From Sphaerochaeta globosa str. Buddy (GTDB taxonomy: Bacteria; Spirochaetota; Spirochaetia; Sphaerochaetales; Sphaerochaetaceae): a stretch of 64,000 bases of DNA. The position numbers and the translations under genes were made by a program. The stretch is taken from NCBI RefSeq assembly GCF_000190435.1, contig NC_015152.1, forward strand, positions 124,001 to 188,000. The letters are read 5' to 3'. Position 1 is the stretch's first letter, and every line of letters begins with the position of its first letter. The notes under the pieces are model-generated. The model was not told the DNA's origin. It did not search any database and saw only the letters and a program-made list of their open reading frames with translations. This document shows, piece by piece, positions 31,297 through 50,660 of this stretch.

Positions 31297-31371
31297 TTCT
31301 GATAGAGAGAGATTGCCGATCTTCTGGCTATCAAGGATCACTAACCCGAAACGGGTAGTGACCCTCGATGA
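31297..31371. repeat. Imperfect direct repeat, copy A, left of the first AAA/DUF4143 gene
   Basis: About 75 bases that align with 32992-33063 at roughly three quarters identity, starting TCTGATAGAGA and ending GGTAGTGACC-TCGA. Both copies lie next to FAH-family sequence (a fragment here, the intact gene at copy B), and both contain a small CACTA-CC/GG-TAGTG inverted repeat. Confidence 0.7.
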
Positions 31372-31505
31372 CTTGGCTGGGGGCACAAACCTCGCTTTCA
31401 TACCGATTACGATGGAAAGCTCGGCCTCGCAGGCAAGGCGCTTGCACCTCGCAGGGTATTTGATGTCCCCATCTTGGGCCAGTGCAGCGGTGGAATTTTT
31501 ATTCA
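31372..31505 (-). pseudogene. Fragment of an FAH-family hydrolase gene
   Basis: The minus-strand frame encodes about 43 residues containing YPARCKRLACEAEL and IVIGMKARFVP. These match residues of the intact FAH gene at 33071-33823 (YPAMCKRLDYEAEL, IVIGKKARFVP) at about 27 of 39 positions. Nothing before or after that block is conserved except repeat A, so this is a duplicated copy that lost about 400 bases of its C-terminal part and its N-terminal part. Confidence 0.8.
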
Positions 31506-31516
31506 TGAACTGTTTT

Positions 31517-31607
31517 TGTGTTAATACACATAAAAAGTACGAATCTTGTTGTTTTGAAAAGGCATGTTTTATATGATTGAAGTGAACTAGAAGTGTGTGG
31601 ATACACA
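31517..31607 (+). promoter_or_regulatory. Promoter between two TGTGT-ACACA palindromes
   Basis: TGTGTtaatACACA (31517-31530) and TGTGTggatACACA (31594-31607) have centres 77 bases apart. Between them lies TTGTTG (31546-31551), 17 bases, TTATAT (31569-31574). The second palindrome ends 16 bases before the GTG at 31624. The layout suggests a dimeric regulator bound at both sites, perhaps looping. Confidence 0.55.
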
Positions 31608-31623: not shown

Positions 31624-32925
31624 GTGATAATTAAAAGAGATAGGTATCTGAAGAAGCTGATTGAGAGAAGAGAAAATGGGCTCGTAAAGGTCATTACTGG
31701 CATACGCCGTAGCGGAAAAAGCGTTCTTCTGAACACTCTATATCATGACTATCTGTTGGACTGCGGTGTAAAAGAGTCCCAAATCATAATGCTGGCTTTG
31801 GATCAGGACATAAACGCCAAATACAGAAATCCACTTGTACTAGGTGAGTATATAAGGGAGATAGCTTCACAATCGCATGAAATGCAGTATGTGTTTCTTG
31901 ACGAGATACAGAAAGTTGCTGAAATCAAAAACCCATATCTTGCTTCCAATGAAGAAAAAATAACGTTCGTCGATACACTTCTCGGTCTTATGGCAATCAA
32001 GAACATCGACCTTTATGTCACTGGAAGCAATTCAAAAATGCTTTCTAGTGATATTCTGACCGCATTCCGTGGCAGAGGGGATGAGATACGCATGAATCCT
32101 CTGTCATACAGTGAGTTCTATTCTCAGTATGGCGAAGACAAAAGGCACGCATGGAGGGATTACATCACATATGGAGGCATGCCTTTTGTTCTTAGCAGAA
32201 GAAGCCATGAGGATAAAGCAAAATATCTCAGGGATTTGTTTTCAAAGATATACATAACCGATGTTGTTGAAAGGAACAGAATTTTGAATGACAGGGAGAC
32301 GCTGGAAGATCTTCTGGATTTTACTGCATCGGCAATTGGTTCCTTGACAAATCCAACCAGACTGGAGCATACGTTCTTGTCACTGAAAAAACAGAAAATT
32401 TCCCATGTAACAATATCAAGGTATCTTGAGTACTTGGAAGATGCATTCATCTTGTCCAAAGCCAAAAGGTTTGACATTAAAGGTAGAAAATATATAGGTT
32501 CGCCTATGAAGTATTATTTCACAGACATTGGACTGAGAAACGCCAGGTTGGGATTTTGTCAGATGGAAGAGACCCATATCATGGAGAATGTCATATACAA
32601 CGAGCTTATGCTCCGTGGATATAGTGTAGACGTGGGAAACCTTGAGGCCTTTGAAAAGGATGCAGAAAACAAGACTGTAAGGAAGCAGCTTGAAGTTGAT
32701 TTTGTTGCAAATGATGGATCACGTGTATGTTACATCCAGTCTGCATTGTCGATTGATGACGAAAAGAAGAGAATCCAGGAGACAAGACCTTTTAGAACCA
32801 TACATGATTCATTTAAGAAGATTGTCATTATCAAGGATGATATCATTCCTTGGCATGACAATGCAGGTGTCTTGTATTTAGGGATAGAACAGTTTCTGTT
32901 GGAAGAAGATTCGATCAGATTGTAG
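31624..32925 (+). CDS. AAA-family ATPase with DUF4143 domain (copy 1)
   Basis: With the GTG start at 31624 (GGAGTG upstream) the product is 433 residues, exactly the length of its paralogue at 49303. An AAA_14-type ATPase domain (about 1-200) has Walker A TGIRRSGKS, Walker B YVFLDEIQ and sensor VTGSNSKML. The DUF4143 domain (about 210-400) has KYYFTDIGLRNARLGF and the late EVDFVAND, a motif like a PD-(D/E)XK nuclease core. The family's role is unsettled. AT-rich compared with its neighbours, no operon partner, and flanked by direct repeats A and B, so it was probably acquired. Confidence 0.9.
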   Translation: MIIKRDRYLKKLIERRENGLVKVITGIRRSGKSVLLNTLYHDYLLDCGVKESQIIMLALDQDINAKYRNPLVLGEYIREIASQSHEMQYVFLDEIQKVAEIKNPYLASNEEKITFVDTLLGLMAIKNIDLYVTGSNSKMLSSDILTAFRGRGDEIRMNPLSYSEFYSQYGEDKRHAWRDYITYGGMPFVLSRRSHEDKAKYLRDLFSKIYITDVVERNRILNDRETLEDLLDFTASAIGSLTNPTRLEHTFLSLKKQKISHVTISRYLEYLEDAFILSKAKRFDIKGRKYIGSPMKYYFTDIGLRNARLGFCQMEETHIMENVIYNELMLRGYSVDVGNLEAFEKDAENKTVRKQLEVDFVANDGSRVCYIQSALSIDDEKKRIQETRPFRTIHDSFKKIVIIKDDIIPWHDNAGVLYLGIEQFLLEEDSIRL

Positions 32926-32991: not shown

Positions 32992-33063
32992 TCTGATAGA
33001 GAAATCGTCAATCTCTTGGCAATCAAGGGCCACTACCTGAAACTGGTAGTGACCATCGAGGAT
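32992..33063. repeat. Imperfect direct repeat, copy B, right of the first AAA/DUF4143 gene
   Basis: Partner of 31297-31371. It ends 8 bases before the FAH gene stop. On the minus strand it is readable as ILDGHYQFQVVALD, and copy A in the matching frame begins VIEGHYPFRV before a stop, so the pair may descend from a small coding sequence. Confidence 0.7.
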
Positions 33064-35263: not shown

Positions 35264-35312
35264 AAAGATATTTGGCAAAATATTTGGTACACTATGAGTG
35301 GAGGACGACTTA

Positions 35313-36659
35313 TTGAAATACTTCGAAACTGAAAAGGTTGAACTGAAAGAAAAGGTCACTGACTCACTCGTAAAGGATATCGAGGCATTTCTGAACAGTG
35401 ATGGGGGAAGTGTCTATATCGGTGTGAAGGATGATGGGACAGTCATTGGCGTGCCGAAGATAGATGAAACCCTGAGAGAAATCTCTGATATCATCACAGA
35501 TAAAATAGAACCGAATGCCATTGACTGTGTCCGTCCTGAGGTTGTGTATGAGGGACAGGTCATTGTCATCAAATTGAATATTTCTAAAGGTAGTTCTGGA
35601 ATCTATTGCATTAGGAAATTCGGATTGTCTTCTAATGGTTGCCATATCAGGGTTGGAACAACCTGCAAATCCTTGTCTTCCGAAATGATCAATGTCAGGT
35701 ATCAGAGGAACTTTATGGATAGTGACCTGATGATAAAAAGGCCAGCGTATTTCGGTAATATTACATTCCGCACGCTGAAGATATTCCTATCTGAAAAGGG
35801 ATACCATCTTGACGAAAACTTCTTCGAACAAAACTTTAAGCTCCGTAATCTGGAAGGACAATACAATCAGTTGGCTGAACTTCTATCGGACAAGAATACT
35901 GTTCCTTTTATTGTAGTCAGGTTCAGGGGAAAGGATAAGTCCTCCATCTCGGAAAGAATGGATTATGGCAATAACTCTATCTTGTTGGCATATGATAAGA
36001 TCCGTAATCGCCTTGAAGCAGAAAATACTTGTGTCGTAGACACTACAGTCAGACCTAGGGTGGAGAGACGGCTATTTGATCTGGATGCTGTAAATGAGGT
36101 TGTCATGAATGCCTTGATTCACAATGACTACAGAATCACAGAGCCCCTTATTGCATTCTATGATGACAGACTGGAAATAACATCTCATGGAGGTTTGCCT
36201 GTAGGCCTAACAAGAGAAGAATTCTTCATGGGAATCAGTAAGCCTCGGAATTCTTCCTTGATGGAAATCTTTGCAAAACTTGGAATTACTGAGCACACAG
36301 GGCATGGGATTCCTTCTGTAATAAGTAAATATGGAAAGGGAGTGTTCGATATTCATGATTCATTCATCAATGTTGTCATTCCCTATGACAAGGAAGTGGC
36401 TTCGTTGAGTGGCGCATTAAATGGCGCATTAAAAAGCTCTCAACAGATAGAAGCGTCTGGTGTTTCGATTACTCAACAGGAACGGAGTGTCGTCAATCAG
36501 TTGATAGTGAATCCTACATCAACCACGAAGGAGTTGGAAAAAGAATGCAGTATCTCATATCGTACTGTTCAAAGGATTATTTCCACTCTGAAGGAAAAGG
36601 GGCTCCTCGAACGAGAAGGAAGCAAGAAGAATGGTACATGGAAGGTCCGAATAAAATAA
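35313..36659 (+). CDS. AlbA_2/HATPase_c_4 domain transcriptional regulator
   Basis: 448 residues from TTG 35313. The N-terminal AlbA_2 (Schlafen-related, formerly AAA_4) domain has ETEKVELKEK and FLNSDGGSVYIGVKDDG (about 5-115). A GHKL-type ATP-binding HATPase_c_4 region follows (about 250-365; VVMNALIHNDYR, LEITSHGGLP, HTGHGI). The C-terminus has a winged HTH (STTKELEKECSISYRTVQR). TTG is preferred because GGAGG lies 8 bases before it; the upstream GTG at 35298 overlaps that site. AT-rich and mobile-looking; such genes often accompany phage defence or mobile DNA, but none of those partners is here. Confidence 0.85.
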   Translation: MKYFETEKVELKEKVTDSLVKDIEAFLNSDGGSVYIGVKDDGTVIGVPKIDETLREISDIITDKIEPNAIDCVRPEVVYEGQVIVIKLNISKGSSGIYCIRKFGLSSNGCHIRVGTTCKSLSSEMINVRYQRNFMDSDLMIKRPAYFGNITFRTLKIFLSEKGYHLDENFFEQNFKLRNLEGQYNQLAELLSDKNTVPFIVVRFRGKDKSSISERMDYGNNSILLAYDKIRNRLEAENTCVVDTTVRPRVERRLFDLDAVNEVVMNALIHNDYRITEPLIAFYDDRLEITSHGGLPVGLTREEFFMGISKPRNSSLMEIFAKLGITEHTGHGIPSVISKYGKGVFDIHDSFINVVIPYDKEVASLSGALNGALKSSQQIEASGVSITQQERSVVNQLIVNPTSTTKELEKECSISYRTVQRIISTLKEKGLLEREGSKKNGTWKVRIK

Positions 36660-49158: not shown

Positions 49159-49205
49159 AGAGGGAATTTCTGTTCCAAGGAGCAATGAATTCCTCTGTTT
49201 TTTTG
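49159..49205 (+). terminator. Terminator after the DsbA-like gene
   Basis: AGAGGgAATT pairs with AATTCCTCT (one bulged G), followed by GTTTTTTTTG. Its loop contains TTCCAAGGAGCAATG, similar to the loop of the terminator at 50616-50660. Confidence 0.75.
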
Positions 49206-49239
49206 TAATTTTTACAAGTCTGGTATTCCTGCATACAAT
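49203..49239 (+). promoter_or_regulatory. Promoter and palindrome of the second AAA/DUF4143 gene
   Basis: TTTACA (49211-49216), 17-base spacer, TACAAT (49234-49239), a good sigma-70-type match. The -35 lies in the perfect inverted repeat TTGTAA-ttt-TTACAA (49203-49217), which may be an operator. Confidence 0.7.
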
Positions 49240-49265
49240 GAGGTATACTTATGAAAGGAAAAAAG

Positions 49266-49288
49266 TGCATCAAGATGCATAAATTTCC
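49266..49288. repeat. Leader palindrome and left direct repeat of the second AAA/DUF4143 gene
   Basis: TGCATCAAGATGCA (49266-49279) is a perfect palindrome in the transcribed leader. It overlaps CAAGATGCATAAATTTCC (49271-49288), which recurs with one mismatch at 50633-50650 after the gene. Confidence 0.75.
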
Positions 49289-49302
49289 TGAGAGAGGATG
49301 CC

Positions 49303-50604
49303 ATGGTCATTGAACGTACTCGATATCTGAATATGTTGATTAATAAGAGGAAGAACGGTCGGGTCAAGATTGTTACTGGGATACGAAGATGTGGCAAATC
49401 CTTCTTGTTGTTTGAACTGTATCACAAGTATCTACTCTCAGAAGGTGTCTCTGAGCAGGAGATAATCGAATTACAACTTGATGACATTACCAATGCCAAA
49501 TATCAGAATCCCTTTGAGCTTGATGCGTATATTCGTGAACTGATTTCCGATGTGAACCGTTTTTACTATGTATTTATTGATGAGATCCAGAGAGTGTATA
49601 CGGTACAAAATCCCTATGTGGATGTACCTGATGCCAAAATCGGCTTTGTCGATGTTGTTCTAGGTTTGCTGAAACTCAAGCATGTCGACCTTTATATAAG
49701 CGGAAGTAATTCCAAGATGCTCTCATCGGACATCCATACTGATTTTAAGGATCGAGGAACGGAAATCAAGGTCAATCCGCTTACCTATCAGGAATTTCAT
49801 ACTGCTTTTCAAGGGGATGAACGCTATGCGTGGGATGAATACGTTACCTACGGAGGTATGCCGTATGCAGTTCTGCTGGAAGACCATGAAGAGAAGAGTC
49901 ATTATCTGAAGGACCTTTTCGAAAAGACCTATCTCTCAGATGTAAAAGAGCGATATAAGATTGGGAATGATATATCAGTATTGGATGCTTTACTCGATTA
50001 TTCTGCCTCTGCTGTAGGGTCTCTGACCAATGCATACAAGCTCTCCAATACATTTAGGTCTGTTACACAAACAAGCATTAAACCTGAAACCATTTCCCGT
50101 TATTTGGAATATTTTCAGGATGCTTATATCCTTAGAAAGGCTCTCAGGTACGATGTCAAAGGACGAAAGTATATTGGAACGCCGTATAAGTACTATTTTA
50201 CTGACGTGGGGCTCAGAAATGCGAGATTGAACTTTCGTCAGTCTGAGGAGAATCATATCATGGAGAATATTATCTATAATGAATTGATTGTCCGAGGATA
50301 TGATGTTGATGTAGGGGTTGTGGAAACCAGTATAACAACTGATGAGGGTAAGAAAATACGTACCCAACACGAAATTGACTTTGTTGCAAGCAAAGGAAGC
50401 CAACGGTATTATCTGCAGTCAGCATTTTCTCTTGCAACCGAAGAAAAACGTCAGCAGGAAATCCTGTCACTCATTCGAGTACCTGATTCATTCCGGAAGA
50501 TTGTAATCATAAAGGATCGCATTGTTCCCAAACATGATGATCAGGGTATTCTTTACCTCGGGATAGAACAATTTCTCCTAGAAGAAGCTTCTATGGACTT
50601 GTAG
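49303..50604 (+). CDS. AAA-family ATPase with DUF4143 domain (copy 2)
   Basis: 433 residues, clear paralogue of the gene at 31624. Walker A TGIRRCGKS, Walker B YVFIDEIQ, ISGSNSKML, then DUF4143 with KYYFTDVGLRNARLNF and HEIDFVASKGS. The conserved D-x-(13+)-E-I-D-F tract suggests a PD-(D/E)XK-like fold in the C-terminal part. ATG follows GAGAGAGG. It stands alone between its own promoter and terminator and is flanked by 18-base direct repeats, so it behaves as a self-contained cassette. Function not established for the family. Confidence 0.9.
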   Translation: MVIERTRYLNMLINKRKNGRVKIVTGIRRCGKSFLLFELYHKYLLSEGVSEQEIIELQLDDITNAKYQNPFELDAYIRELISDVNRFYYVFIDEIQRVYTVQNPYVDVPDAKIGFVDVVLGLLKLKHVDLYISGSNSKMLSSDIHTDFKDRGTEIKVNPLTYQEFHTAFQGDERYAWDEYVTYGGMPYAVLLEDHEEKSHYLKDLFEKTYLSDVKERYKIGNDISVLDALLDYSASAVGSLTNAYKLSNTFRSVTQTSIKPETISRYLEYFQDAYILRKALRYDVKGRKYIGTPYKYYFTDVGLRNARLNFRQSEENHIMENIIYNELIVRGYDVDVGVVETSITTDEGKKIRTQHEIDFVASKGSQRYYLQSAFSLATEEKRQQEILSLIRVPDSFRKIVIIKDRIVPKHDDQGILYLGIEQFLLEEASMDL

Positions 50605-50615
50605 ATCGATGGTTA

Positions 50616-50660
50616 AGGGGAAATTGTTGTTCCAAGATGCAAAAATTTCCCCTATTATAT
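50616..50660 (+). terminator. Terminator after the second AAA/DUF4143 gene
   Basis: AGGGGAAATT (50616-50625) pairs perfectly with AATTTCCCCT (50644-50653), followed by ATTATATAG, so the T-run is weak. The right direct repeat forms part of the loop and 3' arm. Confidence 0.65.
50633..50650. repeat. Right direct repeat of the second AAA/DUF4143 gene
   Basis: CAAGATGCAAAAATTTCC, 17 of 18 bases identical to 49271-49288 in the same orientation. Confidence 0.75.

Follow-up and report, generated by a model that had tools for sequence, protein, structure and literature searches.

A 2026 survey (PMC12988326) ranks PDC-S01, an ATPase fused to PD-(D/E)XK, as the fourth most common defence across prokaryotes, and reports that it has often been transferred between domains. 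In PADLOC, PDC-S01 is a single-gene phage defence candidate defined by the combination of AAA_14 and DUF4143. The passages on PDC-S01 consulted here mention neither an operator pair nor flanking palindromes. A second described system of interest is the insertion of restriction-modification genes with long target duplication (Nobusato et al. 2000, as cited in PMC3031569).

Both systems find counterparts in Sphaerochaeta globosa str. Buddy, whose complete genome of 3.32 Mb contains 10 DUF4143 genes. Two of these lie in the window, the stretch of 64,000 nucleotides analysed here (NC_015152.1, positions 124,001 to 188,000), and both match the PADLOC model PDLC04787 over nearly their whole length, at E values of about 1e-102 to 1e-105. 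Long target duplication involves individual selfish or defence genes between long direct repeats, the length of which varies, with empty alleles in relatives, and the first of the two paralogues as well as many other copies fit that system. The second paralogue, referred to below as the window gene, differs in that its repeats appear to be the cassette's own palindromes, which belong to a class that is also found in other phyla.

The window gene and its product

The window gene (49303..50604, + strand) was identified by domain and PADLOC matches and by a structure model, and encodes an AAA_14 + DUF4143 protein of 433 amino acids. PDLC04787 aligned with residues 2-428 of the 433 (E 8.6e-102), the AAA_14 domain was detected with an E value of 8.6e-25, and the Walker A (GIRRCGKS) and Walker B (YVFIDEIQ) motifs are both present. 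The product is a candidate for phage defence with a putative role in this process. Searches of PHROGs and NCBIfam with the protein gave no match, and a profile search of PDB sequences returned a chance match only.

The model of the full-length protein reached a pLDDT of 84. Its residues 1-310 share their fold with two archaeal STAND-type ATPases, namely SSO1545 (2fna, Z 17.7) and PABY2304 (2qen, Z 17.2), at an identity of about 14%, and residues 224-284, which form three helices followed by a beta hairpin in the model, are interpreted as a winged helix. When modelled alone (pLDDT 86), the C-terminal domain has the order helix-strand-strand-strand-helix-strand; its best structural matches were McrC (Z 9.9), AF1548, Cdn1 and Can2, and Holliday-junction resolvases also matched (Hjc, Z 7.7). 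According to these models, the protein is predicted to consist of a STAND-type AAA+ ATPase, a winged helix and a C-terminal PD-(D/E)XK domain. The first-pass annotation had noted a nuclease-like C-terminal motif in DUF4143 ATPases; in the window protein this motif is altered and reads EIDF...YLQSA, in which the Asp is kept and the E-x-K positions are occupied by Q-S-A, so that nuclease activity is doubtful. The aspartate motif E-I/V-D-F is retained, and Q, not E, is invariant in all nine aligned proteins, with no subsequent Lys. Catalytic residues of the PD-(D/E)XK type are thus not intact, and their alteration, by which the clade of the window gene differs from PDC-S01 as defined in PADLOC, characterizes the subfamily and has no bearing on whether the gene counts as PDC-S01.

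Palindromes around the window gene

The direct repeats of 18 bases that had been reported around the window gene are present: CAAGATGCATAAATTTCC (49271-49288) and CAAGATGCAAAAATTTCC (50633-50650) bracket the ORF and are one mismatch apart. A scan of the window allowing up to 3 mismatches retrieved these two sites as the sole matches, with 0.18 expected, and two matches were reached in 2 of 100 shuffles. The 3.32-Mb genome contains no third copy at up to 1 mismatch, and the one further place, which is reached with 2 mismatches, is unrelated. Both 18-mers are right halves of longer imperfect palindromes, and the repeat corresponds to the right half-sites of the elements called O2 and O3 below.

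On the + strand, the order of elements is O1, promoter, O2, gene and O3. O1 (AGAGGGAATTTCTGTTCCAAGGAGCAATGAATTCCTCT, 38 bp, 49159..49196), an imperfect palindrome recognized in the sequence and by flank comparison, precedes a predicted promoter (TTTACA, 17 bp, TACAAT; 49211..49239) that was picked out by eye from the consensus and is probably sigma-70-like. O2 (AGGAAAAAAGTGCATCAAGATGCATAAATTTCCT, 49256..49289) is an imperfect palindrome situated directly before the start codon and includes the left 18-mer, and O3 (AGGGGAAATTGTTGTTCCAAGATGCAAAAATTTCCCCT, 50616..50653), likewise imperfect, begins 12 bp past the stop codon and includes the right 18-mer. The best partner of O3 in the flank comparison was O1, aligned over 41 bp. 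RNA folding yielded -14.5 kcal/mol for O1 and -17.7 kcal/mol for O3; given the T run that follows O1, this element may also terminate transcription of the neighbouring dsbA-like gene, and O3 is plausibly a terminator hairpin.

These sequences have counterparts far outside the genus. Over 34 bases, the window O2 aligns with the O1 of L267, a relative from another phylum, with a score of 22 and 28 matches, and 18 of 19 bases are shared between the window O3 and the O2 that belongs to L256, a Bacillota relative. Within 26 genomes, the window palindrome was found at the window locus only, apart from scattered matches with 2 mismatches, which led us to reject a dispersed repeat family or an attC-like array.

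Operator-like pairs in relatives from different phyla

A scan of 84,980 species genomes led to 80 close relatives, 48-67% identical, from Clostridia, Bacteroidales, Mycoplasma, Treponemataceae, Succinivibrio, Collinsella and other taxa. Read side by side, many of them have a common upstream plan, in which a palindrome, the -35/-10 elements, a second palindrome and the start codon follow each other; the palindrome classes include TGCGTAAATACGCA, TGCGGATTCCGCA and GAAAGTTRGTCNACATGTNGACNNACTTTC. Repeat pairs that bracket the promoter at a spacing of 68-83 bp, a range picked after members had been inspected, were detected in 35 of 93 close relatives and in none of 448 control genes, which were other genes from the same contigs and to which the same score and cut were applied. 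Without a condition on spacing, the corresponding figures are 38/93 and 3/448. When proteins were collapsed at an identity of at least 80%, pairs were present in 24 of 65 (P 4e-24), although this collapse corrects only partly for identical layouts in related species, which amount to one event. Fewer than half of the relatives pass the cut for O1 and O2. The palindromicity of the O2 region exceeded that of shuffles at score 8 (21/93 versus 2/279), and a test for helical phasing between O1 and O2 gave a weak signal (Rayleigh P about 0.04). A third copy past the stop codon, as judged by comparing O2 with the downstream DNA, was seen in 15 of 93 relatives versus 3 of 448 controls (7/65 after collapsing), and most relatives are devoid of a detectable O3.

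The more closely two proteins are related, the more similar are their O2 regions (Mantel r 0.41, P 0.001), as compared to 0.03 for a control region. This correspondence between palindrome class and protein identity, which extends across phyla, indicates that the palindromes belong to the cassette and move with the gene. It also speaks against the earlier interpretation of the 18-mers as cassette ends or as a recombination signature, since they are half-sites of palindromes that recur before relatives in other phyla and follow the protein lineage.

The palindromes are placed on both sides of the promoter, their spacing is conserved in relatives and they are inherited together with the protein; from the sequences, autoregulation is their likeliest use. 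We favour, with a probability of roughly 60%, a reading in which the PDC-S01 gene is a self-contained one-gene cassette that carries its own regulatory palindromes. Counted against it are two features of the window gene, namely an O1-O2 spacing of 95 bp, outside the 68-83 bp of the relatives, and an O1 that resembles O3 more than O2, as well as the small share of relatives, below one half, that pass the cut for the pair and the scarcity of a third copy downstream.

Gain and loss of the gene in Sphaerochaeta

Related genomes differ in what they carry at the place of the window gene. G011 has the same neighbours (dsbA-like and DUF1905) without PDC-S01, and a single O1-like palindrome remains. 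In G001, a gene pair for a RelB-type antitoxin and a PIN toxin is located exactly between two O1-type palindromes (L053:4311-5226). Here, the palindrome edges are the duplication edges, and both outer flanks align with the single-copy allele of G011 up to the palindromes. This toxin-antitoxin pair is left without explanation by the cassette reading and was counted against it. No alignment with G011 was found for the right flank of the window locus, so that only its left junction is resolved, and this was likewise counted against that reading.

Two further loci show the same pattern. At the guaA/MATE locus (L070-L073), the gene lies between palindromes in four genomes, and in G019 and G020 the gene is absent and one palindrome is present; the L081 locus contains the gene in two genomes and a lone palindrome in six. 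At all three Sphaerochaeta loci, relatives lacking the gene retain exactly one palindrome. Such empty-site alleles were found in G011, G019, G020 and the six genomes at the L081 locus, and genomes lacking the gene at the same place bear out the idea of the first-pass annotation, to the extent that the gene is a unit gained or lost between direct repeats. The analysis revealed no sign of the phase variation that the annotation had also considered.

In 26 genomes of the genus, the palindrome of the L081 locus, GAAAGTNNGTCNACATGTNGACNNACTTTC, otherwise adjoins DUF4143 genes or stubs (L339, L343), apart from two other sites, located in G001 and G011, where no gene remnant was found. The L339 and L343 sites, in G007 and G013, are lone palindromes next to DUF4143 5' stubs with about 40 and 26 matched residues, and these are apparently decayed cassettes. 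In the species tree, which is apparently that of FastTree, G018, in which the L070 locus contains the gene, is placed outside a group of six close genomes to which the gene-less G019 and G020 belong, and this position favours loss at this locus. The gene copies at L070 and L081 show more similarity than their flanks do, which leaves room for a recent horizontal transfer into the site. The plainest reading of a lone palindrome in these sequences is that it would be the footprint of a deleted gene, left by an O1 x O3 deletion.

The first paralogue and duplications of host DNA

The first paralogue (31624..32925, + strand) has its likely start at GTG 31624, because the listed start at 31597 falls inside its O2 and the orthologue in G001 has an ATG at the position of 31624. 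Its own O1 (TGTGTTAATACACA, 31517..31530) and O2 (TGTGTGGATACACA, 31594..31607), both on the + strand, are 77 bp apart. Flank comparison confirmed that this paralogue, too, is situated between direct repeats, in this case of about 74 bp, with the left copy at 31298..31371 and the right copy, which reaches the 3' end of a FAA-hydrolase gene, at 32992..33062 (+ strand). Adjacent to the left copy is a decayed FAA-hydrolase fragment (31372..31542, - strand; query residues 69-125, 53% identity) that, to judge from its sequence, is a remnant of a long duplication. The G001 orthologue, 92.5% identical, is found at the same place with a similar FAA-hydrolase fragment. Neither in sequence nor in kind are the repeats around the first paralogue related to those around the window gene.

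Comparing the flanks of DUF4143 genes throughout the genus, as the first-pass annotation had proposed, revealed that direct repeats are far more common beside them (17 of 71) than around neighbouring genes (3 of 270). After near-identical proteins had been collapsed, repeats flanked 8 of 41 DUF4143 genes as compared to the same 3 of 270 controls, and two of the three positive controls are another AAA ATPase and a Schlafen gene. Some of these repeats are not cassette palindromes but stretches of host DNA that have been duplicated, ends of adjacent genes included, and several other copies, the first paralogue among them, lie between long duplications of local host DNA.

Long repeats also flank other genes of the genus. 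The Schlafen AlbA_2 genes L218, L229, L238 and L083:7402-8815 lie between long direct repeats, with alignment scores of 58, 65 and 127 and an exact 37-mer; no such long repeats flank the window's own Schlafen gene (35298-36659). The PIN_3 toxin gene L246 (G000:C1:646765-647088), in the same genome as the window, lies between two copies of AACCRAAGGCCGACCA...CTGATCAGCCTT, of which the right one is palindromic. Two AAA ATPases outside the main set (L102:7146-8507 and L258:3861-5087) are located between direct repeats of 55-77 bp. Near a DUF4143 gene of G016 (L078, L077), a hicB-like segment is repeated, with 190 bp at 93% and 52 bp, about 5 kb apart.

Alternative explanations

The observations on host DNA fit a different account, in which a cassette lands at an intrinsic terminator or another local sequence and duplicates it; the repeats would then be host DNA, and the alleles with one palindrome untouched targets. 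Pure target duplication fits the first paralogue with its FAA-hydrolase remnant as well as the toxin-antitoxin pair of G001, whose flanks align with the single-copy allele, and it is also favoured by the many DUF4143 copies between host-DNA repeats, sometimes with the 3' end of the upstream gene, and by the flanking repeats of Schlafen genes and PIN toxins. However, a random host target fails to account for the palindromes of the window gene and of the L070 and L081 loci, the classes of which also precede relatives elsewhere, both at different loci and in different phyla, and the L070 and L081 loci are free of such palindromes in the outgroups G001 and G010. Pure duplication of host terminators was dropped as the principal explanation of the window gene since the same palindromes precede the gene in other phyla, and we regard target duplication as unlikely here, albeit with a weight that should not be neglected.

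The presence of three alleles at one palindrome, namely empty in G011, with a toxin-antitoxin pair in G001 and with PDC-S01 in the window, together with the one-palindrome alleles at two further loci, would also be expected if the palindromes were site-specific recombination sites like integron attC, at which cassettes of one or two genes are exchanged or switched on and off. This is improbable: the cassette is without a recombinase, the palindromes vary among lineages, the attC core GTTRRRY was not seen in them by eye, and a pair that brackets the promoter at a fixed spacing is better explained by regulation. A solely RNA-based function of the hairpins, as intrinsic terminators of the neighbour and of this gene plus a leader hairpin, agrees with the folding of O1 and O3 and with the T run after O1 but is similarly improbable, as many relatives have palindromes too short for a stable RNA hairpin (e.g., TGCGGATTCCGCA), the O1 of the pair lies upstream of the promoter and terminators alone leave the tracking of the protein lineage unexplained.

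Proposed model and implications

In the self-contained cassette that we favour, the winged-helix protein, product of the sole gene of the unit, would bind O1 and O2 as putative operators and, when bound, repress its own promoter, until a signal such as infection releases or activates it. O3 would terminate transcription and might offer the protein a third site. Being direct repeats, O1 and O3 can also cause the gene to be lost, and a deletion between them would remove the gene and leave one palindrome. That the cassette carries its palindromes would account for the cassette-like appearance of these genes, with a direct repeat on either side.

Few defence candidates are commoner in bacteria and archaea than PDC-S01, for which no mechanism is known. 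In this context, a conserved two-operator promoter that changes with the protein would provide a handle on the target of the protein and on the signal that releases it, and the lone palindrome is a possible footprint for counting lost copies. A bolder view, to which we attach little probability, holds that the palindromes, besides being operators, serve as structure-specific recombination sites, at which the ATPase with its altered nuclease domain moves or swaps single-gene defence and toxin-antitoxin cassettes; if this were true, PDC-S01 acting at its palindromes would be a minimal mobile element.
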